A DNA stretch of 64,000 nucleotides from Lepisosteus oculatus (taxonomy: Eukaryota; Chordata; Actinopteri; Semionotiformes; Lepisosteidae). The stretch spans positions 19,539,817-19,603,816 of the forward strand of contig NC_090699.1 in NCBI RefSeq assembly GCF_040954835.1. Direction: 5' to 3'. The position numbers were made by a program, and so were the translations under genes. The stretch's first letter is position 1. Every line of letters begins with the position of its first letter. Shown piece after piece: positions 10,411 to 45,827 of this stretch. A model generated the notes under the pieces. It saw only the letters and a list, made by a program, of their open reading frames with translations. It did no database searches and was not told the DNA's origin.

Positions 10411-10870
10411 GACACGTTTCGGTAACTCAACTGAAACATTGAAAGTTTAAGTTCTAATTTTTTAGGCAGATTGCTGTGTTGTTGATAAAAATGTGACATC
10501 CTTCTGAGTTAGAATACATTTAATAACGATAATGTTCCTAATTGTGTACGATGTTTTAATCTATCAAATGGCTCATGAATTACGAAAAATATAGGTTTCC
10601 ATAAATACACACCTAAAAGCAGCGATACATTGCTTTTATGGATTTCCAAAATACATTTCGTAACATTAGCACGACGGTGTCACACGAAATAAGGTATAAA
10701 GTACTGTAAAATATAGATTTTTAATTTATTATGCAAACTGCTTTGTACGTTGAGTGTTTTATCGCTTTCTGTAATTAAGACTAACGTCGAGTCTCATTTT
10801 AGGTGATTAATATGAGAATGTTGCGTCCGTTCTTCGTGCATAGAGTAATCTGAGAGTCTTTAAAGGGCGT

Positions 10871-12042
10871 ATGTCAGACATGAGAGCCGTAGAGGACTGG
10901 GGTTGCACGGTGTCGGTTTTTGAGATAAGTGAGGAGTCTTTACATATAAACATAACCAGCAATGGGAAGGTTTCGAATCCTTCTGTATCCGAGGGTCCAC
11001 AGCGCGGTTTAGCCGAGCCTTTAAGCTGCAGTGGGACCCTTTTGGACAGTCGGTCTGGGATAGTGCTGTGTCACAGCCTCGTCTTCTCCGCTTTCCTCAA
11101 AAAAAGCATCAATATCTCCGATTATCGGGTCCTGTTTCCAGACAGCTTCAGCAGTAGGCTGCACGTCTACGTGCAGCGCCCCGAAGAACTTAAAAGTGTA
11201 GATAACACGAAGCAGCAAAGCCATGTAATGCGCCAGTGCCTCGGAAAAGCCAAGCAAACCGTGTCCAAGCCGTCCCCTCAGAAGGCAGAGCTCCTCATGC
11301 TAGTCTCCAATCCGCAATTCCAAAAAGCGTTCACGAGGTTATTTAATAAACCAGATGAGTGGAGATTTTGCAGCAACACAGGGGATATAGACCTGGATGA
11401 CCTAAAAAAGGACACAGAGTTTCTAAGTTGGTTTGCTGTGCTTAAGGTTCCAGGCCTTTTGGGTAGAGGGCAGAGAGCTCTACCTTGGGTGTCCAGTTCT
11501 AGTCTGAAAAAGGGGGATGTCGTTTTCGCCTGTGGCTCCCCGTTTGGCTCCTTCTGTCCTGACCTATTCATGAACACCCTCAGCAAAGGGATAGTGAGCA
11601 ATGTCGCCGGGGAGAGCAGGGCCTTGATCCTCACGGATGCCCGCTGCCTGCCTGGCACAGAAGGAGGGGGACTCTTCTTGGACAAAGGGGGCCGCTTCTG
11701 CCTTGCTGGGCTGATAGTGTCCCCGTTATGTTGGAGGGCAGGGGAATGGATTGGCCTGACGCTGGTGTGTTCCCTGGAGTCCGTTGTCAGGAACATTTGG
11801 TTTGTGAATAAAGGGGACCCTTGCCTGAATTGGATACTGTCCGACACCCCGTCGCACTTCGTACAAGATCTGCCAGTCACAGGTGAAGCCAAAAGTGTTA
11901 GACAGCACCCCACCGTAGCATTAGTACAGAGCGGCGAGCTCTGGGGCTCTGGAGTCCTGATGAACTCAAGAATGATGCTGACATGCAGACACGTTGTGAA
12001 CGGAGCTTCGAGGGTGGTTGTGAAGATCAACAATAAAGAGAG
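10871..12042 (+). CDS. tysnd1: tysnd1 exon 1
   Basis: This large exon encodes residues 1-390 and two bases of Arg391. It includes the whole N-terminal pseudo-protease half and catalytic His374. The family block CGSPFGSFCPD followed by LFMNTL is clear. The donor is gtattt. Confidence 0.95.
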
Positions 12043-15000
12043 GTATTTCTAGCTTTGTCACTCTTGAACTAGTTTTGCCAAGGGACTTGTAGGTGTATCT
12101 CAGGATTTTGAAAAAGGGTTTGCTGTGCTTTGCCGGTGATTTTCAAGGGGACAGAGTTACATGATCATGAAACATATACCAGTGCCTTGCAAAAGTATTC
12201 AGACCTTTTAAAAGTTTTCCAAAGTTACTGGATTCCAAATCATGCTTGCACATCTTTTTCACAATCAGTATTTTTATTGCCAACTCACATGCTCAATCAA
12301 AATGTTCAAAGTCAAAATTAGTTATTTGTCAGCCTATAACTTAAAGAAAGTCAAAAACTGATATATTTCAAGTAGGGAGCTGCGTCAGCATGCGTAGGCT
12401 GCAAAGGAACAAGTAAAAGGTTTATTCCATGCTGAGGAGAAAAGAAACATGTTTCGGCTGTGGAGCCTTCAAAAATATTCTGCTTGCATAAGTATTCAGA
12501 ACCTGCACATTTGTATTTGGTAGAGCCACCTTTTGCCACAATAAAAGCTTTAAGTCTTCGGGGGTAGGCGTCTACCAGCTCTGCACACTGGAAAGGAGTG
12601 ATGCTCGCCCATTCCTCTGGCAGATTTGCTCCAGCTCATTCAAGTTTGGAGGGGCCTGAATACTTTTGTTAGCCAGTATATACGGTATAAAAAACAATTT
12701 CAGAATTCTTTTGAAAAAGTAATGTATTTTGTCCAAATCCCTGATGTCTATAGGATTTCATTATGTTTATGTTTGAATTCAACTTCACAGAGGTGTTTTT
12801 GATGTAAAAATATAAATATCTGGTAGAATAAGTGTACAGTTAGCTTGCTCATCTCTCTGTATCCCAGATTGCTTACTGCGGTGGGGAATGTGGTTTACTC
12901 CACTAAGGACTCTTCGCCCTACGATGTAGCAGTAGTGCTCCTGGCAGAGCCCCTTCCCAGTACTACTGTTCCTGCTGTGGCCAGGGACTTCAGAGCAGGT
13001 AGAGTGGTCAGTTACACTTCCTTTGCTCAGTGTAAGGTGTCTGTTCAAGGTCAGTACACGTTCAAACATTGTAGCATTTGGAATTAAATAATGCTGCTGC
13101 CTCAAAAAAATTAACAAACGTTTTACTTGAATTAGAACAAAGAGCAACTCACAATTTCTAAATATCTGGGCATTTGGTCAGATAGTGCTAGAATTTTCAA
13201 AGTTAATATTAATAAACTCCTGGTGAAGTCTAGACATGGTTTCCTTTATCATTATAATCTGGTTTTGCATGTTCCCCTAGTTATACAGTAATTCAACTGT
13301 CCATACTCTTGAACCGCCCTGGGCTGTGGTGACAAGGCCTGAGGGCTTCTACCATTCTGCCATCAGATCTGTCACTCGCGTCCCATATTCCACTTATCAT
13401 TGTGTCCTTCATTCTTTAATTAATTTGAGTCTTTTTGCCCCTACGAAGGACTGGCTTCCCATCCAGGGTGTACCCTGCCTTGCACCCATTGCTTGCAGAG
13501 ATAGGCTCCAGCTCCCCCCTGCGACCCTGAATTAGATGAAGCAGTTGGAAAACGGATGGATGGGTGCATTCTAGTCAGATTCTCTGGTTTAGGGTAGTTT
13601 CACAATCGGCAGATAGAGCTGAAATTCCCCAACTTCAAATCTGAGGGCAGTCTTAGTCATATGAGTGAGTGTTTTATGCCTGACACCTGCACTTGTCAAC
13701 TCTGCCCCATTCCACTGTTTTAAATCCAACCAGTTATTTTACATAAAACCTCTCTTTTATATTGTTCCTTTTGGGGAAATTGATTTTTTGGTATCTGTTG
13801 ATTTTTTTTAGAGGTGGCACTTTTCAAAAACCTGTAACGAACGTATACCATGTCATGACTGTATTCTGCATGTTGCATATCATAGCTTCTAATTCCATTT
13901 AATTTACTGTTTTAAACTATGTACACCTGTCTCTTTTGTGTTTGATTACTTTATTGTACAGGAGCCTGAGATTCTGAAAGGCACTATATAACATATCGAG
14001 TAGGTTATTACTATTGTATCCCAGCTCCCAATTGTACCAATTTTTCTTCTGTACATCTGCAATGTGAACCTCTTGGCCAGAATATCACCGCAAATGAGAA
14101 TTTATCAGCTGACCTATTTGGGTAATTAATTCTGCAGCTGCTATTATTGAAAAATGAGGAGTTGGTGCTAGTTACTTCAGGAAAATATTGTATAAATTAC
14201 ACAGGGTGTGCTAAGGTATGCTCTCCAACTTTGGCAACAGGCTGACCCAACGAGACAGCTGATTAATTCTGCAGCTGCTAACAAGTCATCATGACAACGG
14301 TCTTCTGATTTAAGGGTCATCTGATGAATATGAGGTTTTTGCAGTCAAGAATAACTGCAATGAAGGGAGATGCTCTGTTCGGAGTTGTCTTCGAATGCAT
14401 GTGTTTTATTCTGTTGAATTCTGTCGCACCCTTTTTCCTTTCTGTGCAGGAGAAGATGTGTATGTCACAGGGTATGGTGTGTTCGGCCAGAGCTGTGGGC
14501 CCTCGGTGACCTCTGGGATCCTCTCCAGAATAATCGCTTGTGATTTCCAGCCTGCAATGCTGCAGACAACATGCGCAGTTCAGGCCGGCGCCAGTGGGGG
14601 CGCTGTGATTCGAGCAGCCACAGGAGAGCTCCTAGGTGACTACTCCTTTATTTAAAACTATAAAAAACAGTAGTTGCTGCATTAAAAATTACTTTAATCA
14701 GCCTATTTAGTACAGTATGTGCATTTTAAGCAGCATTTTGAACTAACATCTTAAGGGATGCTGATGATAATGGAAATGAGTTGGCTAGCAGTATGGATCT
14801 GCTTCACAGAGTGTTGGATTTCTCATTTCTAATGTTTTTCTTTAAGTGGTCAGTGCAGTGTGTGGCTGACTACTGTGATGCTAAATGTTCTCTTCTATCA
14901 GTAACTAGTGCTACTACCAGTTCTTCTGTTGTAAGCAAAACATCTACCTTTTCAAGAGGTTTGTAACACCAAGATGCATTTCTTCACCCCCCACATGTAG

Positions 15001-26889: not shown

Positions 26890-27035
26890 CTACCAGATGT
26901 AACCCCCATCGTCGACCTCTCCTGCCTCCCCCTCCTCTTCCTCTGCCTCTTCGGCATTCTCTTCCGCCTCCTTCTCCTCTTCATCCTCCCATCCTACCCC
27001 ACTGCCAAAATCTCCCGAATATCCCACCAGCTCAT
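26890..27035 (-). CDS. spock2: spock2 last coding exon, acidic GAG-bearing tail
   Basis: It encodes DELVGYSGDFGSGVGW, then a Glu-rich stretch and DDGGYIW, stop TAG at 26890-26892. The Ser-Gly pairs next to acidic residues are the heparan/chondroitin sulphate attachment type. The acceptor (TTTCCAG) is preceded by a (CT)n run. Confidence 0.96.
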
Positions 27036-30000
27036 CTGGAAATGACAGAGAGAGAGAGAGAGATAGAGGCAGACCTGTCACATTGAATACTGCCATCCAT
27101 CAACAGGTTAATCAATGAACTCCCAATATTGTTTTCTGCTTCAGTTTAATTATAAAAAATGTGATGTGTAGAATCTGGAAAAAGTGTTAAGATACAGTTT
27201 ATTTACTCACTGGGAGTGTTGAGATCAAATAGAACATTCATGGTGTTAAAAAATACAACACTTGCATTTTTAAATGGTTATGTTCAAAAAGCTATTTTTA
27301 GCTGCCTTACCATTTTTAAAAATAACTCCAGAATGTCTTGAAAAAATCTGACCAGTTCTGAGTGGAATTAAATATTTCAGTATGTTACCCACACAAACTT
27401 GGGTGCCTTTAATTATTTTATGTAATGACGTCTTATTAAGACGACACCTGGCGAGGGCACAGGGCCAAAGAGGAGTTTTTAAAGTCTGTGAAGAGTGGGG
27501 GAAAAAAAGAGACTCCTCAATTTTTGTTTAAGCTGTTGTGTTTTTCTCGAGCTTCCCCGGGGCAAGGAGATAGAGGCCGAGCGACTCTCTTGACACGCAA
27601 TACATCGCATCTCGCCATACACAGCAAAGGGCGAATTTCACTGGCTGCTACAGTTACTGTAGTGACACTCTTTTAGAGGCATTCAGACCTTTGGAATGAT
27701 GATGACAGCAGGACGTGGGTGATGTAGGGATGTATGAGGACATACTGGCCCTGCTCTGATTCCACTCTGCCTTACCGCAGTCTGGGTTCCCATGGACTCG
27801 GGATCCCACCAGCTCCCCTCCATGTTGGTCCACACACCAGCACTCCCCCCGGCTCTGGTCGCACTGCAGCTTCCTGTAGTAGCCGTCTTCATCGCAGCTG
27901 GGAATGTACATCCCTAGCAAACACAACAGACGCAGGTCACGACTGGAGAGCCACAGACTCTTCCCAAAATCAAACTGGTTCTCAGTTCCTGACCTGACCT
28001 ATAGCTGACTAACCTGTAAGTTTACTGGCCCAAGACCCTGGAGTATCAAACATTGTGTACTTCCTGGGAAAGGCAGAGCACATGGCTTATCTGACTGGCC
28101 CCTTACCAAGAGGATGCAGTAGGCGATAGGTGCTTACTTCCATCCCTTTCCCAGGGGACTAGGGAGGCCTGGCAGACTGCAACACTGCATTGCAACGCTG
28201 ATTTACTATGCAAGGGGATTTACAACCGATTGGTTTTTAGCAGAGGAGAAGAATGCAATGGAAAACCTGTGCAGTGCCCTTGGGGAGTCCCGAAGTGTAT
28301 GGTGCCAAATCCAAAGCCCTCTCCCAGATGCCAGTTCTGCTCTCTAATCCTCGTACTGATTACGAGGTAATCCCTGCCTCGCGCTTGTGATCTGTTTAAT
28401 GAATCGCGCCGGATCCTGCCGAGAGTGCTGTGTCACACAAACATCCCGCAAAGGCCCCACAGGTCACACACCTGGCCCCTGTGTTTTTACTGAGTCTGGT
28501 CCCTGACGGTCACTTACCTGGCTTTTTTTTGGCCACCTCTTGCACTTGAATCCTCTCGAGTTCAGCAAGGCAAGGAGGCTCTGAGAAAGAAAAGAGAAGC
28601 CGCAGTTCTGTGACAAAGTGCAGCGCACTAGAATATGTGCTGTGTTTCCAGATCACTTCTTATCATCCACCTGTCTGTTTGTTTTTCACTAAATCTACAG
28701 CACTGTCCTTGAGTGTCTGGGACATTTTGTGCATGAAGACTTAGTTTCATGGGAAAAACCCAACCACGGTATAAGGACATCTTCACAGCAACTCTCACTC
28801 AATGAGAAACAATGTAGAACAGTTTTTGGCAGCCTTGCTGGAGTCTTGAACATTGGCCGTTTCTGCATCGCTGCCCAGCTGAATGTTGCATTCTCAGCGT
28901 CCTGGGAGCCAGGATGTCAACAACACAGACGATGCAGTACAGCTCTGCCACGGAAACTTCCAGTGCATGTTCGTTCCCTTGTAACAACGAGGAGACAAGC
29001 TGTGTCAGGCCCGATTGAGCCAGCAGAGCTCCAGTGAGACTTGTCTGCCTTTGATCAAACGTGAGCAGTGTTAGTTCAACTATGAGTTCACGTCAGCAGC
29101 CCATTGGAGTCTGCTCTGAACCACAGTGTAGGGGGAACTCAGTCATCTGCAGAGTCATTGTGAATGTCGGACTGTAATAACAGAGTCAAGGATAACGACT
29201 CTTCCAGGACAGTCACGTTCAAAATACAAATCTAAGATGAGATCACTTTATCGGCCATATACAATTTCCTGGATTAGGAATTTGTCTTTTCGCATACCCC
29301 AACTTGCTCTTCATGAGACAGGGAGAGAAGCATGGGGTCAGAGCACAGGGTCAGCCATTTTATACAGCACCCCTGGAGCAGTCGGGGTTAAGGGCCTTGC
29401 TCAGGGGTCCACTGGAGTAGAATTTCTTTGCAGGTCAAGGGATATGAACTGGCAACCTTCCAGCCACAGGCGCAGATCCTTAGCCACAGAGCCGCCGCAC
29501 CAGATCTAAATCCTATTATTGGGAATCAGACTGCGAGGCCGGATCGCTTTTGGCAGCGGGCCACTCTTTGTATTTTGCAAAGTCTGTAAAACTACAGTCA
29601 CAGTCTCTGATTTCCAATTTTAGCACACAACTTCAGCAAAGCCCTATGAGATTCTTTGTTCTGATGTCTTTTGTAGGCTATTAATATCTTTGATTTTCAT
29701 GAGAACTACACTGCTAAGCACTTTGAGATGAAAGTACCGCTTTTATTCCCAAGACACCACATGGACCAAATGTGCAGAGAAACTACCTTGTTAAATATTT
29801 CCCAGTATCCAGAATTAATCCACTGTTGACATAAAAACGAATCTTGCATTTTTGAACAGGTAGTCACGATTGTCTAAAACTAGTTATTGTTACCTACACC
29901 TTTTGAGTGGAGAGATGTGTCAGTGTGCGCTGGCTGCAAAGGAACAAGTAAAGGTTCATTCCATGCTGAAAAACAGAGAAACAGAATATTTGGTCTGTCT

Positions 30001-33000
30001 TTGGGTTTGAGACTCACAGCCCAAATGTTGTGTTTCTTCTTTTTCAGTATTGAATGAACCTCTGCTTGTTCCATTGTCAACTAGACGCCCACTGACACAG
30101 CTTTAGTGCTTGTCTGGATTCTGTCTCCGACTTGACAGAAACTTACTTTCCCTCCAGAAGCAGAAACACCACTCCGCGGTGGAAACCTGCCCATCTTTGT
30201 ACGTGTCGCAGGAGTTGAAAAAGGGCCGGATGCAGATCTCGTACTTGTCCAGGTTAATGGCCGCCAGTTCGGACTGGTCCAAGTAGAGGTCGCTGTTGGT
30301 GTCAAGTCTCGAAAACATCCAGCCGATGGAATCCTTACAGCTGGCCACAAGGCTCTTATCCAGAACTGCAGGTGAATAATAAAGTGTTACTGCACCAGGT
30401 ATCAACCGAGAACAATTTCCCAATTACAACTGATGACCCAGGAGGTGACCATTTAAACAACAGGGCTTTTAGCCAGATCTGAGTAACCTACCTTGCGCAG
30501 GACTACGACAAGTGTGCCACCACCTGCAATCTGATCTCACAAGCATCCAGGTGCCAGTCCAGAGTCCTCACCTCTCCTCCTCATTGCTGAGCACTGCAGC
30601 TGCACGTTGTTAAATCACTCGCTGCCGTCCTGTGAGGTATCTTTTTACCCCCTCCTATGTTCAAGAGGTTCTGAAATTTCCATTCCTTTTCCTGCCGCCA
30701 GCTAATGTCCCCAAGGTGTGCATGTGTAAAGAGTCAGTAGTTACCCTATTGATGGGGCGGGGGATTTAGAAAAGAGTCTGTCCCCTGTCTGTAATAACTT
30801 CTTGCCTCACTTCATTCTGAAATTGCTTCAAAGAGCCGGGAGTCACTAGAACTGAGCCATTTTAGATTGGTTGGCATGAAATTATCTTTACTCCTGCTAT
30901 TAACTCTTTTCTAAAAATATTTCTCCTAAAAACAAATTGGATACGGACAGCTCTGTCAAGCTGAAATAATACATATTTCTGCAGGACGTTAACAGCGAAG
31001 GAGGGATTTCGGCCCAGTGGCCCCCCTTACCTGAGGCCGTGCTGGCTCCTGGCCTCCCTGAGCTGTTCTGCTTGGCGTTTCCATGAAGCAACTGGAACCA
31101 GTCCCTGAGGCGATCGCCCAGGTCAGCCAGGTCCTGCCCAGTGCAGCTCTCTGAGGGACAAAGACACCAACCGAGTCGGGGAATCAGCCCGGCAGCAGAG
31201 AGGCAATTTCCAGAGCAGCATCTACACTACACTGTACTGGGAGACCGGTCGTGGCCGTCCTCCCGATGGAGGCCAGTACCTGGAGTGGGGTAGTCCCAGA
31301 CCATTGTTGCTCATGGTACTGTAGGTGTTCACATTGCCTGGTGAGCACCTGACAGTGGTCTTGAGGGTTTTACAATGCAATACTTAGAGGAAGTTATTAA
31401 CTGAAGTTCAGGAGGAATATCAATGACAGGTCAATCTGACTTAGCAGCACCTAGTCAACATCATTCCAAAACTAGCTACAAACTGTATACTGAACTCAAA
31501 CGCTTCCCTTTGCATTTTGTCTCAAGCATCCCTCCTCCACCCCATCTCTTCATTGCAACTTCCCCTTGGTCCACTCCCTCCGAATGGGGCTCGAGCTTCT
31601 TCATCTTATGGCCAGGACGATACCCATGGAACAAGCAGGTTAAGCCAAACGTTTCTCACTAAGTATTCCAAACATTTACAAACCATTCAATTCTTGGATG
31701 TTGTCGTCCATAGTGAAACGCAGTATTAAAAAGAAAAATTGGGCAATTGCTCTTGTTAGCAACATTTAGGCCTGTTGCAACACAGGAATTCATATTGGTG
31801 GAGATGGAGATGCAGCCCACATTTCAGAGCAGGCAGCTCTGTCGTGCCGCACTGCTCAGCCGTACTCACCCTGTTTGCTTTCGGAGTCGGATGTCAGGGA
31901 GGTGTCTGTGGCACACGGACACTGTCCAGTGCATTTCACAGTCAGCTCTTTCCCAGTCAGACAGCCCTGCTGCTCCAGTTTACACTGCAAGCACACAAAC
32001 AAGAGGGCGAGGCCCTCAGTAACTGGCAGCAAGTGCCTGGGGCTTCTGCAGGGCAGTGGTGCTGTCCATTCTCAGACCGTCGTCTGCACGATGAACTGGC
32101 AGCAAGAGTCTCATCAATCAGCTTGCAGCAGACAGGGCAGTGATGTGCAGCTTCTATCCACATCAAATATTTATTGTAGTGACGGGGGAAAAACTGCTCA
32201 TTCAAATGACTCAATTTTTGAGTGCAGATTATACATTAGTTTGGTTGATGCTTTTACCCAAAGCAACTTATATCTGTATCGATTTACACATTGTTTTACT
32301 TAAGCCGTCTGAGCCGCAGAAGAGGTGAACAATCATTGTGCTTTCTCTTTTTAACAAGGCTGAAATTACAGACAGAAAGAAGTAAAAATGAATTCTACAG
32401 TCATTCTTTTAATTTTTTTTAAATTTGCCCATTCAACGCCGAATGCCTATTCCATGCACAGTGCAAGTCTCTTCATGCACAGAAATGTCTAAACCAAAAA
32501 AATGTGCTGTGCAGTGAAAATGATCATTCTACATGTGGCTGGCTTTTAGAATTTTGTGACTTCAATTATTTAATAGGAACAAAAAAAATTCTGTAAGACA
32601 TCAAGCCATGTTTTGCTTTCAGTTCATAACTTAAAGCATAGGGAACAGCGTTTATGCTAGGTCAAAACCCATCCTGACTAGTCCCAATTGAAGATTAGTT
32701 TGCAATTTACAATGTGAATATACAGTATGCCGCAGTATAAAGTAGCATCATGAGATACATTTCCTTTACCTGAGAAGCGTAGTTGTGCCCGTCGGATCCA
32801 CACACTGGAGTAGACGCAGACACTGGACAGGGCTTGCAGCTGTTGTCTTGCAGCTTTACTGCAGGCTGTTTGATTCTAAGTGCAAGACCCAGGGCAAAAG
32901 AAAAATCAATTTGGAACGTACTGTGAAAACAGGCTACGATTTTCTGTTGAGCTGTGTTGAGCCAACAGATATTTTTTTTATTGAGAAACATCAGGTATGC

Positions 33001-36000
33001 ACAGAGTGGCCCTGTCTTCACAGGCCTATCGGTCCGCTTATCAATAAAGGCAGTTTTCAGAAGGATGGCAATTATGCAATTGTACAATTTCTCAATCCCT
33101 GTCATTTCATCGTGTATCTTCAGAGCCTCATAATCCTCTTCTGTTTAAAAATACCAACACACCATCTGGAATTAATTTTCAAAATGTTGTGCCCTTTGAA
33201 CATCTACAGTTTTAAAGATTTGTTGCCCATTTTGGTGACCTGACATTCATGGCTTGTATTTAATGACGAATTTATCTTCAGGTATCATATCGTTAGGAAT
33301 GATTAACTCTCATGCAGATTTCCCATTTTCCCACACTTGTAAAGAAACAGAGTTGCACACCTCATGGGCAATTTCCCAGATGAGGTTCTATTTTGAAAAA
33401 GATTAATGTCTGTCACTGCAGATAGAACTTGCACATAATAATGTTTCACTCCATTACGTTTTCTGATTATTCTCCCTGCTTATTGAGCACTAGCTAATCT
33501 TTCCTGTTTTATGTCAGTAAGCTAAATATATATTTTGGGGGGTTTGGACAGTGAAAACCTGCAGGTCAGAGAAAGGATTAAATGGTCAATGTCTGACCTC
33601 TTATGTAAAAAGAAAGGTATTAAGTATCTGCACACTTGGATTATGTTTCTCACACTGTTTTAAAATATATTAATACACCAATATCAACAGGAAATTAACC
33701 AGCAACAGCAGTATTTTCCAAGCAATATGACTCATTCTTGCCACATGTGATCCATTAATGGATCCACAATAGTCAAGGGCAATGCTGTCAAAGACACTAT
33801 CATAATTTAGCTTTAGTTATCTGTGAATATATGGAACTGCTACAGGTGATGTGGCCTGTAGTTATCATCTCCATATTACCTAATGTTGTGTCCTAAACCT
33901 CTAAAAAAATTCAGCGCATAAAGCAAGCCTGAATAAACTTGGAGGCTGCTGCGCTTTTTGTCCAGGCATGGCGTTAGATGCCCCAGGCCCGTTGCTCACC
34001 TCTGCTCCAGCTTCTTGCGGTTGATGCACATGGCCCGCTGGTAGCCCTGGGCTATGCAGACTTTGTGCCGGCTGCACTTCACCTTCTGGCACGGGTCCTT
34101 GGTGGTGTCCACAGCTGCAGACACAAAGTGATTCAGCACGACATCACAGGGAAACAAGCTGCTCCGTGCTGGCTGTCTCCCAGAGATCAATCACAGAGCA
34201 GGGCACCTCTCCACCACATGTCAGTGCAGAGGAGGCACTCATATTTTATTGCCATCTTCCTAAATGAAGGCAGTGTCTCATTCAAATGCATCTGCCTTTA
34301 ACCCGCTTTCTCCTCTACTTTCTTCAGAGCCTCTCACACGGCTATGGAGCAGCTGTGAATCTTTCAAATCGTAGTAAACACTGATTCTCTATTCCTATAC
34401 ACTACTTAATAAATTGATTCATATTTCAGTCATTTTCATCATTTGAGATTGGAATATCATGTATGAGTTGAATGGATAGCAGCCCCGTCGCAGTAAAGCA
34501 AGACCCCAAATATTGTGAGCCAGTTCTCATCAATAGAAGGGGACACTATATTGTACATTCAGACTGCTTTCTGCAGATTTCTGTCACAGTCTTGACAAAC
34601 AAAGACATTCCAAAGAGAGATTAATCATAAATGTTCTGAGGAAGAACCAGTTGTTCAAGGTCAAATGACAAATGAATTGCTTTCTAAATCTCCCTGATCA
34701 TTGAGACTATTTCCATTGTTTGTTTTTAAATCACAGCACAAAGCACTTGCAGACAGCCCTTTTTATATCAGATGAAAGGTTTTCTTTCTATAGAGTGTTG
34801 GAAGGCACAGGAAAAATGAGAACATAAGGACATTAACATAGTGCAAAACGGACAGCCATTCTAGCTTGTTTGGTACTTAGTAGCTAAAGCAATCCAGCCA
34901 GATGTTATCCAGCCATTTCTTGTAAGAAGCAAAAGCATCACTTTTTTCAACACCGCTGTGTAGCTTGTTTCATACTTCATACATGGTCCATATTTGCAGC
35001 TCTTTGTGTAAAAAATGCATATTGTTAAATCATCCTCAGTGTGAAATACACTGCCCCAAAGTTTCTATTTGTGTTATTCGTGTTCCAGCTGACTTTGTCA
35101 ATACCTTTGAGAATCTTGAATACGCAAATCTGTTTAGCTCAGGAATGCATCTATTTTCTCTTTTCTGGACTAATTCCAGAGCAGAAATGTACAGTATGTG
35201 GTGACTGAAACTGTACTCCAAATGAAAGCTTACCATTGTGTCACACAATATTAACATTACATCTTTCAATTTTAATTCTACACTTTTATCTAGATATTCT
35301 AAAATTGTAAGCCTCTTTATATTGCTTTCCCATGTTTTCCAGAAGAAAAAAAAGAATGTGTGATATCACATCTGACTTAAGTGACTGCTGGAAGTGTTTT
35401 GTTAACAGTCTATGAATAACATCTCTTGTTTCTTTAAGTGCAATTTCTGGAGATGAGTTTATGTTGTAGTGCTTCTAACACCTGTACACTTCTGCCTCTT
35501 CCATGATAACGCTGCCTAATATATTAAAAACCTTTGCCTTTAGGTCTTTATTATATTAGGCAGTGTTATCATTGTCATCAGTATTAGTGCAGCCTGTTCT
35601 CAGTTTATGCCTTAATAAAAACTTGTGCAAAAAACTTGTTTATATTATATAAGCCGTTTAACTCAAAAAGTTTTTATTTATTATCTCTGGGACACTTTTC
35701 TTCATCCTCTACTGTTTCATTGTAATTTTAAAAAGGGCATTTATTATTCAGCCTAGATTGCAATAATCTTTTCTATTTGTGTTTTTTCTTATACATTCTA
35801 TAAAGCACTGCCTTACTCCTTTAATCTGATAGAAATTCCACCAGATTATGCTTCTGCATTAAAAGAAGTACACTGGGTCCTAACTGGTATGTTGTTTAAG
35901 ATTAAGATGTTTAAGAATAGATTTACCTGGCTTAACAGTGTGCTGTAGTACTATTTATAAGGAGTTATAGAAGCTTCAATAAACCACAGAAATGCACACT

Positions 36001-42000: not shown

Positions 42001-45000
42001 ATAGCTATGCTGATGTTGAGTATTTCTTTCTGCATATAGAAATATCCACAGAAACCCCATTACAAGATACAGAGAACTCTCTCAAGTTCACAGTTAAAAT
42101 ATAAAAAAGAACCTGCTGAGATTTAATTGTTAATTTTGTAAAATAAAAATGCTTCACCTGGACTGGTTTCCTACTGTATGTATGTAAGACTATTGTTTTG
42201 ACTCATATGATACCACTAATTTCATGTGTAATCAAACATTTTACCACAAATGTGAATAACATATAATATTGGCTAGCATTGTTTTAAAGGTTTAATCCTT
42301 TATACTTACTCTCATCTGATCCTTGGTTTTCATCCCAGGTTCGGATATAATCATCCTACAGAGAAATAAAAATGTTTTTATTGTTCAAAAAGAGCTTATA
42401 AAATACTATATAAAATAAAACACACTCTGTTTCCTTAAAGCTATGAATTGAATTTCTACAATCTTCCCAAAAACCTGTTCTCTTACAGATGGTTATGAAT
42501 TTGCTATATGTATTACTTTTAGATTATTTTGAAATACATATAATTAAAAATGTATGAAAAGCTGTTTACACACTATAGTATCCTTATAAATTGTATTAAA
42601 ATATATGTATTTAATTTAAAAAATGTAAAATTATGGTGAAAAATAATTATCAACTTTGAGGAGAGTCACTGAATGATACAATTATTGCATCATTTCCTGT
42701 CAGGTACATTTCATTGAATTTGACCCCACAGAAATGAAAAGATGCAAAAATAAATGATTGTAAATGAAGCATAACTCACACAACAGATGAGAATTTGTGA
42801 CAAAAACAAATGTTCTCATGAAAAAACATCTACTAATTAGATATTTATCTCTTTGAGAACCGCAGTTTAGTCAGCACTTTTAAAACGCTAAAAGCTTTCT
42901 AATTGTTTGAAAAAAAAAACAGGAAAAATACTTCATTGTACAACAGCAGCAAAACGACAAGGGGAGTTTACTGGTCATGTCAGAGAATTCCAGTCTGTTG
43001 CCAGGCCCGTGTGTCTCACAAGACAGTTTTAATTTTAATTGATCCAAGAAGCAGGCTTTATGCTACGATATACAAAACAACCCAGCTGAGGATTGAAGGT
43101 TCCCACAACGGGCAGGGAACATCACAGGTTTTGAGAGCAGTGGTCTTCCTTATCTATTTATCTTCCTGACTGGGAATATTTCCTAAGGACCACCGTCTTC
43201 AAAGTGTTCCTCCCATGTACGCGCCATTGAGACATCAGATGATTTATTAATCAGACACGCAATACAAACAGGGTTTGATCCTGTTTTGTCTTGAACTTTT
43301 TAAAAATATTCAAATGAGTATAGACATCGTTGTTAGTAAATCAATGCATAACTGGAAATTCACGCATTCAGAGACAGAACTGGAAGGCTCATAAGGCAGA
43401 AATTCACCATGGATGGGATGTCAGTCCATTGCAAGGGTTTCCTCTTTAAATAGAAATTCATTTCAAACTTTCTCCATGAGTAGATGAGGGACCATATACC
43501 TCAGTGGTGTGAAATACTTATAATTAAAATCTTCAGTTTGCCCATTCCTTGGGCTGAGTAGCTATAATTAGACGAGGCACATCTAGACAAGTGCCGATAC
43601 TCCTTGTATTGACTCCATCAAGACGGGAGCATTTATAAGCTTCCTCAGAAATTCAGCTTATGAACTGACAATATTTAACGGTTGGGATACTGTAACTCTT
43701 TCACATCGCAGGCAGTGATTAATGAAAGACAAGCCCATTGAGTGGTTGCAGTTCAGTCCACTTCAGTGTTTTCACACCTTAAAATCTGATGAAATATAAG
43801 CTCCAATAAAAATGAGGAAGACCGTCAGCATTGTTATCCCAAAGTTGACTTGCCCTTTTGGTATCTTTCACAAATTGAATGCGTACAGATTCAGGACTGG
43901 TTGCATTCTCATCATCGAAGAGGAATTTCACAAGTGACATTCTGTGCAGGTTAAAAAGCAGCCAGGCCTCTGGCACTACAGCTGTCATCTTCTTTCAGCG
44001 GGGAATACAGTTGAAATGGATAGGCCCATTTTTCATTGTGAAAATACTACTATTTTTTTTTGTGTCCATAGAGAAGAAGGTCAAGGTTTAGGCAACCATG
44101 CCTCAGTTCAGAAGAAGAGTGCTCTCCTTCCCTCCAGTGCTGTCATCTGTCATTTCACAAACGCTTCTGAAGAAGGTATAATTACTGTTATGGTATGATT
44201 TTTTTCATGTCATCTGGGATGTTTTCTAAATAACCTATAAAGTCTGGATGAAAAGATTTTGTTTTACATTTGCTACAGTATTTTGTTTTGACTTTGAGCC
44301 TGATTTATTTCTTGAAATCTGATTTATAACTTGCAAGAATACAATATCATTAAAAATCATTAGATACTTGGCAGGCATTCACAGTCTCCTTCTTTAAAAA
44401 AAAAAGATCATGACTGAAACTCTCTGCCCGATTTTCAATTAGATTGTAATACCGGTAACATTCGTTTTCTCACCGTTTGAAGCACAGGTGAAAGAACATA
44501 ATGCATACTGAGCAATGGGCATTTTGAGAAAAACATGTACATTTGAGTAAGCTTGTCTGACAAAAGCAGAGTGCTTGTACAGATCCAAGAGATGTTCAGA
44601 GCCCAGTCCAGACGCTGCATTCTTGGCAAATCAGATAAAGGTAGCTCAGAACTTAGTTCTTCAAGAGGATGGTCCTGTGCCTTAATAATTCTTATTCAGC
44701 GTGATTCTCCAAAGTCTCCATGGGGAATGTCATGACTTTTTTATTTCATGGTTATAGCTACACTTACCCTACTCTTATCAAGCTCTGTTTAGCTCTGTTC
44801 CAAAAAGTTAGGGCTCTCATGTCCATCTTCCCTTACAATTGTGACACTAACTGCATATAAAAAGCTTTTTCCTTCAATGTCACCCCTTGCCTCCCTTCGA
44901 GTATATTACCCAATGGAGATATTAATGGGCCTAATTAATGCAGGCAGGTAACACCTGTAAGTTCAGGAAACATTCTCTGGGGTTAAAAAAAGACGTCAGA

Positions 45001-45054
45001 CAAAAGTGGCACGAGCAATGTACAGACTTAGAAACAGCTACTAACCTCCACTTC
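26890..45054 (-). CDS. spock2: Testican-2 proteoglycan SPOCK2, partial (ten exons, C-terminal 358 aa)
   Basis: Minus-strand exons 45046-45054, 42310-42355, 34000-34114, 32770-32875, 31870-31984, 31031-31150, 30147-30365, 28518-28580, 27776-27913 and 26890-27035 join in frame to 358 codons plus stop. Human testican-2 has about 424 residues, so about 63 are missing at the N-terminus. SPOCK2 is a secreted calcium-binding proteoglycan of the SPARC family, abundant in brain matrix. In order come a follistatin/Kazal module (CGSDGHNYASQCKLEQQGC), a SPARC-type EC domain with two EF-hand loops (DTNSDLYLDQSE and DTYKDGQVSTAE), a thyroglobulin type-1 domain with CWCV, and an acidic tail with Ser-Gly glycosaminoglycan sites (SGDFGSG) ending DDGGYIW. 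This tail and VDTTKDPCQKVKCSRHK match testican-2 rather than testican-1 or -3. Confidence 0.96.
27047..27063 (+). repeat. (AG)n run in a spock2 polypyrimidine tract
   Basis: On the spock2 strand this is (CT)n and lies 10-27 bases upstream of the last-exon acceptor, so the microsatellite forms part of the splice signal. Confidence 0.8.
27776..27913 (-). CDS. spock2: spock2 exon, thyroglobulin type-1 domain
   Basis: It encodes GMYIPSCDEDGYYRKLQCDQ through the CWCV motif to HGNPDC. Splice sites are TTTGCTAG and gtaagg. Thyroglobulin type-1 modules often inhibit cysteine proteases. Confidence 0.95.
28518..28580 (-). CDS. spock2: spock2 exon linking EC and thyroglobulin domains
   Basis: This 63-base exon encodes KPPCLAELERIQVQEVAKKK and Pro. 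Both boundaries (TTTCTCAG, gtaagt) keep frame with their neighbours. Confidence 0.93.
29243..29508 (-). repeat. tRNA-derived SINE
   Basis: Read on the minus strand it begins with 'tgcggcggctctgtggctaa', an A-box-like start. A B-box-like GGTTGCCAGTTCATATCC follows about 40 bases on, then a long body ending near 'ccgataaagtgatc'. It lies in the spock2 intron between 28581 and 30146. Confidence 0.7.
29905..30108. repeat. Foldback repeat, two inverted copies beside a spock2 exon
   Basis: The left arm (minus orientation, about 29905-29990) contains 'gctgcaaaggaacaagtaaa' and 'ggttcattccatgctga'. The right arm (plus orientation, about 30018-30108) contains 'cagtattgaatgaacctctg', 'cttgttcc' and 'cactgacacag'. 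The arms are near-complementary over about 60 bases, so the transcript can fold into a hairpin. The repeat ends about 40 bases beyond the donor at 30146. Confidence 0.65.
30147..30365 (-). CDS. spock2: spock2 exon, EF-hand calcium-binding domain
   Basis: It encodes the core of the EC domain: CKDSIGWMFSRL, EF loop DTNSDLYLDQSE, LDKYEICIRPFFNSC, second loop DTYKDGQVSTAE, and WCFCFWRE. Acidic ligands at positions 1, 3/5 and 12 of both loops are intact. The donor is gtaagt. Confidence 0.96.
31031..31150 (-). CDS. spock2: spock2 exon, start of the EC domain
   Basis: It encodes SCTGQDLADLGDRLRDWFQL onward and includes an N-glycosylation sequon (QNSSG) at the position where human has QNGS. Splice sites are TCCCTCAG and gtaagg. 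Confidence 0.94.
31870..31984 (-). CDS. spock2: spock2 exon, end of the Kazal module
   Basis: It encodes CKLEQQGCLTGKELTVKCTG, then QCPC and a Ser/Thr-rich linker. The acceptor is GCTTGCAG and the donor gtgagt. Confidence 0.94.
32770..32875 (-). CDS. spock2: spock2 exon, Kazal module
   Basis: It encodes IKQPAVKLQDNSCKPCPVSA and STPVCGSDGHNYASQ. The VCGSDGHNY block is the Kazal signature. The acceptor is ATTCTTAG-like (ending CTTAG) and the donor gtaaag. Confidence 0.93.
34000..34114 (-). CDS. spock2: spock2 exon, follistatin-like cysteine pairs
   Basis: It encodes VDTTKDPCQKVKCSRHKVCI and AQGYQRAMCINRKKLEQ. It is nearly identical to the human testican-2 segment and is the most diagnostic part of the gene. 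Splice sites are GTCTGCAG and gtgagc. Confidence 0.96.
34822..35420 (-). mobile_element. CR1/L2-type LINE relic, minus orientation
   Basis: The plus-strand sequence runs 'gaacataaggacattaacat', 'tttgtcaatacctttgagaa', 'ctggactaattccagagcag' and 'aatattaacattac'. These are eroded landmarks of a widespread fish LINE read from its complement. All frames are broken. Confidence 0.6.
37011..37040 (+). repeat. (ATA)n microsatellite at a SINE end
   Basis: An imperfect ATA array abuts the truncated SINE at 37041. It corresponds to the ATT-rich tail of that family on the opposite strand. Confidence 0.8.
37041..37210 (-). repeat. 5S-derived SINE (SINE3-like), truncated at both ends
   Basis: It shares 'cacctggatgatgtgacggc', 'gagcagagtaatgaagccaa' and 'ggaggccatgattg' with the fuller copy at 5211-5733. 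The 5S head is missing, and so is the segment between the body and the ATT tail, indicating an internal deletion. Confidence 0.8.
38914..38927 (+). promoter_or_regulatory. CTCF-like motif in spock2 intron
   Basis: CCACAAGAGGGTGA matches the CTCF core CCACNAGRKGGCRS at 13 of 14 positions. It is isolated and weakly supported. Confidence 0.3.
39156..39228. repeat. Foldback repeat, short palindromic copy
   Basis: 'gctgcgtcagcatgcgtagg' leads into 'aggaacaagtaatag', which is followed directly by its complement 'ctattacttgttcct'. Here the family is reduced to one arm plus a short inverted piece. Confidence 0.7.
39541..39935 (+). repeat. Second 5S-derived SINE, different tail
   Basis: 'ggtctcagaagctaggcaag' and 'gccgggcctcgtccgtt' align with the 5S rRNA box A region (TCTCGGAAGCTAAGCAGG, then TCGGGCCTGGT). 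The body and the tail ('caaggtgctttgggatgaat') differ from the other copies, suggesting another subfamily. The box C-like region is badly eroded. Confidence 0.6.
42310..42355 (-). CDS. spock2: spock2 exon, DDYIRTW segment
   Basis: This 46-base exon encodes DDYIRTWDENQGSDE plus one base, matching the human DDYIKSWEDN region. The acceptor is CTCTGTAG and the donor gtaagt. Confidence 0.92.
45046..45054 (-). CDS. spock2: spock2 9-base microexon (Glu-Val-Glu)
   Basis: GAAGTGGAG is flanked by CCCCAG upstream and GTTAGT downstream, and by about 45 bases of almost pure pyrimidine before the acceptor. It encodes EVE, phase 0 on both sides, so including or skipping it keeps the frame. Testican-2 and -3 carry EVE immediately before DDY, while testican-1 lacks it (from memory of the proteins), which fits an optional cassette. 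Confidence 0.85.
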
Positions 45055-45109
45055 CTGGGGTAAAGAAGGCAGGGCAAGCAGAAGGGACAGAAAAAGAGAG
45101 AAAAGTCAT
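45055..45109 (-). promoter_or_regulatory. spock2: Microexon splicing enhancer region (pyrimidine tract with UGC motifs)
   Basis: On the spock2 strand this is a long C/U tract with UCUCUCUUUUUCUGUC-like PTB-type sites. It has three UGC triplets, complements of gca at 45069-45071, 45074-45076 and 45078-45080, about 15-26 bases upstream of the exon. UGC near the 3' splice site is the recognised SRRM4 (nSR100) motif of neural microexons. Function here is inferred. Confidence 0.6.
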
Positions 45110-45827
45110 TAGAAACAAATGATCATCTACCACTCTTTCAGTCAACAGCACAGACAGGTCTTTTAGAACAGTTTTAGAAATGGCCATCCCATAGTTAAAC
45201 CTGCCATCAGTTTTATCGTGTCTCTTTACAAATACCAGTCTAATATTTTTAAGTCAAATCAAATTTCATTAAAAATGTAAAGTGCACTGTGCTTTAAGCC
45301 AAGGACCATCAGTAAGGACTCCTCTGAGATGGAGAAGTGGTGGACTTGAATGCGGTGGACTGTATTAGGATTGCCTCAAAACAACGTCATCAAGTGATTC
45401 ACAGAGCTGAGAAACTGGGATGTGCCTTAACAAACAGAACTAGAAAAGGCCTTTTAAAGCTTTTTGGAATCATGAACACAATAGTGAATATTAAAAATGC
45501 TTGTTATTCACCATTGTTATTGCATACAAAACAGACTGACACACAGTAACTTCAATCAATCCTTTAATGTGTATACAGCTGACACATCTAATTAAAAAAA
45601 TTCTGGATTCCAGACTTCTGGTTTCATTACTGCACCACTAACTGAAACCTAAAACAAAAGCAATGTCAAGATATACAGCGCTTACTGAAAGTCTACACAT
45701 CCTATCCAAGGTTAACTCAGAAGAAATTTGTAGCTCAAGCAAAAGGTTCTTGCACCAAGGACAAACTCAGGGGTGTGTAAACTTAACTAAAAAAATGTTC
45801 TAGTTTTTAAGTACTGTAGCTTCACCA

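Follow-up and report, generated by a model that had tools for sequence, protein, structure and literature searches.

The window, a stretch of 64,000 nucleotides (C4:19539817-19603816) presumably from a ray-finned fish, carries on its minus strand a brain-matrix gene that we take to be spock2, encoding testican-2, by its similarity to human testican fragments. Ten exons were mapped, from a nine-base microexon (45054-45046) to the last coding exon, which begins at 27035. The microexon is followed by a 46-nt exon (42310..42355), by the exon in which the follistatin-like region starts (34000..34114), by the Kazal part (32770..32875) and by two exons at 31870..31984 and 31031..31150. The extracellular calcium-binding (EC) domain lies at 30147..30365, a short exon at 28518..28580 and the thyroglobulin type-1 domain at 27776..27913, and the final coding exon (26893..27035) encodes an acidic tail and precedes a stop codon at 26892-26890. 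From microexon to stop codon the spliced reading comprises 358 residues, in which Pfam recognized Kazal_2, SPARC_Ca_bdg and Thyroglobulin_1. Against the human fragments the EC exon scored 369 with testican-2, 257 with testican-1 and 262 with testican-3. Searched with the EC exon, neither bacterial/archaeal nor viral contigs yielded a testican relative, as expected of an animal gene. At gathering thresholds Rfam returned nothing in the window, and ARAGORN found no tRNA there. On the plus strand, positions 10844-12052 hold an open frame of 402 residues in which Pfam recognized Trypsin_2 (E 6e-12); it resembles the peroxisomal protease TYSND1.

The preliminary description had placed a nine-base exon between CCCCAG and GTTAGT, and indeed both splice dinucleotides are found there. 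The minus strand at 45054-45046 reads GAAGTGGAG (Glu-Val-Glu, EVE), directly preceded by CAG and followed by GTTAGT; the wider context is CTGCTTGCCCTGCCTTCTTTACCCCAG upstream and GTTAGTAG downstream. The AG of the 3' splice site occupies 45055..45056 (context ACCCCAG) and the 5' splice site GTTAGT 45040..45045. The next exon (42310..42355), which encodes DDYIRTWDENQGSDE, lies behind an intron of 2,690 nt and begins with GATGATTAT, that is GAT GAT TAT, in phase 0 at 42355. A search with human peptides did not find the exon upstream of the microexon within the window; it was located beyond the window in the same contig, where its last base corresponds to window coordinate 70307. This exon ends with KIKHWNRFRD before GTGAGT, likewise in phase 0, so that the described continuity of frame on both sides was confirmed. 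From these coordinates the introns flanking the microexon measure 25,252 nt (5') and 2,690 nt (3').

EVE could in principle belong to one of the neighbouring exons. This was ruled out for the exon starting with DDY, whose acceptor directly adjoins GATGAT, and for the upstream exon, which stops at FRD before its donor, so that a larger upstream exon ending in EVE, a possibility left open in the preliminary description, does not hold. Since neither neighbour codes for EVE, the three residues come from the 9-nt exon alone. Its inclusion yields KIKHWNRFRD-EVE-DDYIRTWDENQGSDE (WNRFRD-EVE-DDYIRTW) and its skipping KIKHWNRFRD-DDYIRTWDENQGSDE (WNRFRD-DDYIRTW), both in frame. With 9 nt, AG/GT flanks and phase 0 on either side it falls within the definition of a microexon, which asks for 3-27 nt, AG/GT flanks, a length divisible by three and equal phases. 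The Pfam domains, the exon chain and the flanking phases together support an in-frame 9-nt exon of spock2, and we regard the nine bases as almost certainly a real exon. Judged from its sequence, this exon is probably alternatively spliced.

Upstream of the microexon, three UGC triplets lie at 45069..45080 on the minus strand, starting at -26, -22 and -17 and with the last one ending at -15, which bears out the earlier description of a long C/U tract with three UGC triplets 15-26 bases upstream. They are candidate SRRM3/4 sites (PMC8797185). Every one of them is followed by a pyrimidine (UGCY), and the triplets therefore also fit YGCY, the MBNL consensus (PMC12064062). A long UCUC-rich pyrimidine tract, a candidate PTBP site, follows at 45081..45105 (minus), and the acceptor region contains four UCUC/CUCU words. 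A CUAAU branch-site match is present at 45108..45112 (minus), with the predicted branch A at 45109 (-55), and an AG exclusion zone of 70 nt extends over 45057..45126 (minus). When we asked for an AG-free zone of 60, three UGC, three UCUC/CUCU words and a CUAAY, thresholds that were set after seeing the site, all four features coincided at a single AG, that of the microexon acceptor, among the 8,458 that the two strands of the window contain. None of the nine other spock2 acceptors combined them (0/9). Taken singly, an AG-free zone of at least 60 and at least three UGC were each found at one of these nine acceptors, at least three UCUC/CUCU words at four, and CUAAY at none. The donor GTTAGT scored 3.52 bits on a frequency table, the second lowest among the nine spock2 donors scored. 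Shortly downstream of the microexon, at window positions 44993-44971 on the minus strand, we noticed a second pyrimidine-rich stretch that resembles an acceptor, CTTTTTTTAACCCCAG followed by AGAATG, which may be a decoy or a cryptic 3' splice site.

This arrangement corresponds to a published splicing code. Exons that depend on the eMIC domain are characterized by extended AG exclusion zones, by UGC close to the 3' splice site, by pyrimidine tracts that are UCUC-rich and longer than usual and by strong CUAAY branch sites, and the same features were seen in mammalian targets; AG-free zone, CUAAY, UCUC and UGC are reported to occur in full combination almost exclusively in exons of this type (PMC8797185). 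UGC near the 3' splice site, a long AG exclusion zone, a UCUC-rich tract and CUAAY are all present at the spock2 site. The earlier suggestion of SRRM-type signals near the exon thus agrees with the cis architecture published for SRRM3/4 targets. Among 11 candidates scored, SRRM_C (PF15230) matches over the curated cut-off were found at no fewer than two loci of the genome, C22:4209389-4209544 (minus) and C29:3374088-3374225 (plus). We take SRRM_C to be the eMIC domain, and the two loci are presumably srrm3 and srrm4.

A genome search with the EC exon recovered three loci of testican genes, together with two weaker matches that are SPARC-like. The latter, two EC exons on the minus strand of C1 at 72.55 Mb and 72.31 Mb, lie about 240 kb apart and have 49-51% identity; as further testicans they were rejected, being SPARC-like by sequence, and we take them to be of the SPARC or SPARCL1 type. 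Human fragments also served to assign the two other testican loci, which we take to be spock1 (on C11) and spock3 (on C1). The EC exon of the former scored 367 with testican-1 versus 257 and 316 with the other two, that of the latter 359 with testican-3 versus 296 and 248; the FS exon of the C1 locus separated testican-3 from testican-1 by a small margin (157 versus 154).

Both paralogues contain an EVE site of their own. In spock1, GAAGTAGAG lies at C11:33632789-33632781 (minus) with the strong donor GTAAGT, 8,380 nt ahead of the DDYFKNWSPSKPFDQ exon, and the upstream exon ends with KDRYWNKFRD before GTGAGT. It was the sole 9-nt candidate to pass a candidate filter in the 8.6 kb searched; these are part of a 113.7-kb span upstream of the DDY exon, which may hold a second EVE site. 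In spock3, GAGGTTGAG lies at C1:14134587-14134595 and is the one EVE site in 39.7 kb. It came from the peptide pattern, no 9-nt candidate at this locus having passed the filter for donor score (>1.5) and pyrimidine fraction (at least 0.65), and its donor GTTTGT is poor (0.54). The exon 92 nt after it reads EPGTWNPGKPFDQ, with EPGTW in place of DDYFRTW; this exon (in the region C1:14134587-14134727) is two codons shorter than those of the paralogues and has no DDY. An upstream WN[RK]FRD exon of spock3 was not found by a search of C1. All three EVE sites precede the exon that lies 5' of the follistatin-like exon. A position between the WN[RK]FRD exon and the pre-follistatin exon was seen with both neighbours in spock2 and spock1 and with the downstream neighbour only in spock3. 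The EVE codons of the three genes differ at synonymous positions only, a pattern that would fit selection on the peptide.

The paralogous acceptors carry the code to differing degrees. At the spock3 site the AG-free zone measures 77, and there are three UGC triplets but no CTAAY; counting the sites themselves, an AG-free zone and UGC content as good occurred at 1 of 533 AGs for spock3 and at 3 of 4,252 for spock2. The spock1 acceptor is a weak version of the code, with an AG-free zone of 43, one UGC and no CTAAY, and is not distinctive in these two features (17/664 AGs in a 10-kb stretch do as well). The preliminary description had held that testican-2 and testican-3 contain EVE and testican-1 does not. 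Its second half fails here, since spock1 carries its own site and EVE is no speciality of testican-2 and -3 in this genome. Skipping in spock1 gives FRD-DDYF, which resembles the human testican-1 reference; that reference is not known to contain EVE.

How could the spock2 site be explained otherwise? If GAAGTGGAG merely happened to stand between AG and GT, it would be no exon and the testican-2 of this animal would lack EVE. In the assembly (1.2 Gb, 813 contigs) the bare string CAGGARGTGGARGT has 92 matches, close to the 86 of a reversed control pattern; we therefore dropped the string as evidence, and the case rests on place, frame and flanking signals. Between the flanking spock2 exons GAR GTN GAR bordered by AG and GT occurs exactly once in 27,951 nt, while only 4 of 500 dinucleotide shuffles of this span contained such a site (mean 0.008). 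When the 21.6 kb of window sequence that lie upstream of the DDY exon were shuffled 400 times, an EVE site arose in 1.5% of the shuffles and one accompanied by a pyrimidine tract in none (0/400). One site was found in each paralogue stretch too, against shuffle expectations of 0.004 for spock1 (2/500) and 0.010 for spock3 (5/500). The strong pyrimidine tract and the branch-site match at the site also speak against coincidence, as does EVE occupying the very same position in human testican-2 and -3. We consider a chance occurrence extremely improbable. A real exon might still be constitutive, with EVE in nearly all spock2 mRNA and with the long tract and the UGC triplets merely compensating for its tiny size. 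The human testican-2 reference, which contains EVE, would suit this reading. So would the finding that some 81% of micro-exons no longer than 51 nt were constitutive, although their number falls sharply with exon size (PMC4317164). However, in the same source constitutive micro-exons tend to have strong sites and to be flanked by introns that are short. Here the introns are long (25,252 and 2,690 nt), the donor is moderate, the AG-free zone is long and the branch-site match distant, which makes up the opposite profile. The spock2 features match the eMIC code instead (PMC8797185), and the SPOCK3 counterpart is alternatively spliced (PMC12626424, PMC5122892). Constitutive inclusion thus seems rather unlikely to us.

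An exon that is regulated could be controlled mainly by another factor, either MBNL acting on the YGCY motifs or PTBP by itself, and its pattern would then be something other than neuron-specific inclusion. All three triplets can be read as YGCY and the UCUC-rich tract suits PTBP. Against this stand the full feature combination, given as largely characteristic of eMIC-dependent exons alone (PMC8797185), and the zebrafish spock3 microexon, an srrm3/4 target (PMC12626424), and we hold control by such a factor to be unlikely. We favour inclusion of the spock2 exon in neurons under SRRM3/4, which we hold to be reasonably probable, and repression by PTB is plausible.

Under this SRRM3/4-dependent model PTBP-type repressors would occupy the pyrimidine tract in most cells. 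There the distant branch site, the long flanking introns and the modest donor would favour skipping (WNRFRD-DDYIRTW). In neurons SRRM3/4 would act on the UGC cluster and bring about inclusion (WNRFRD-EVE-DDYIRTW). EVE adds three residues, two of them acidic, and a functional effect can be inferred from this: Glu-Val-Glu would lengthen and acidify the flexible N-terminal segment that precedes the follistatin-like domain, and may tune a contact which this segment makes with a protein rather than affect the folded core. In PMC7763218 the N-terminal region of testican-2 is modelled as disordered, and it is the folded triplet that is credited with promoting cell migration.

Both the position of the exon and the peptide that it encodes probably go back to the ancestor of the vertebrate spock1/2/3 set. 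More tentatively, and with slightly less than even confidence, we propose that the one testican gene that existed ahead of the vertebrate genome duplications already carried the EVE microexon and that all three daughters kept the neural switch, the mammalian testican-1 reference representing the skipped form. If true, a three-residue N-terminal toggle would have been shared and coordinately regulated across this proteoglycan family for about 450 million years. Microexons this small easily escape annotation and read mapping, and an overlooked spock1 isoform is predicted. With an EVE site in synonymous codons in each of the three testican genes found in this genome, what looked like a peculiarity of one gene becomes a testable candidate for a switch of the whole family. 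Testicans act as modulators of cell migration and of MT-MMP activity, and testican-2 has been reported to oppose testican-1 and -3 (PMC5122892, PMC7763218); a shared neural toggle in the N-terminal region would therefore suit as a control point.

Microexons of this gene family have been described before. Our literature search found no paper pairing SPOCK2 with microexon or micro-exon, supplementary tables such as VastDB-type lists lying outside its scope, and the matches for SPOCK2 with SRRM4 were unrelated by title. In zebrafish, a spock3 microexon is among 21 that were picked because their inclusion is sharply neural, because srrm3/4 regulate them strongly and because they are conserved in human, and all 21 were checked by RT-PCR (PMC12626424). 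Its deletion led to the inclusion of cryptic sequence, and the deletion line was for that reason left out of phenotyping. Human SPOCK3 has two identical 9-bp microexons, designated exons 8 and 9, that were missing from a generic PCR product sequenced from pancreatic stellate cells; for the murine SPOCK microexons Hartmann et al. 2013 is cited (PMC5122892).

The spock2 exon can be compared with three known systems. To constitutive micro-exons (PMC4317164) it is alike in size class; it differs in having long introns and a moderate donor where those have short introns and strong sites. With eMIC-dependent neural microexons it shares the 9-nt length, the preserved frame, the UGC triplets, the AG zone, the UCUC tract and the CUAAY, whereas its donor is weaker than consensus and the likeness is one of sequence. 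Closest is the SPOCK3/spock3 microexon, which belongs to the same family, is also 9 bp long in human and is alternatively spliced, with neural, srrm3/4-dependent inclusion in zebrafish (PMC5122892, PMC12626424). Human SPOCK3 has two such microexons where spock2 here has one EVE site in 27.95 kb, and the genes are paralogous; we infer that the published SPOCK3/spock3 microexons and the EVE site share their place. With the SPOCK3 microexon already in print, this kind of exon is known, and the present genome adds two members to it, one in spock2 and one in spock1.
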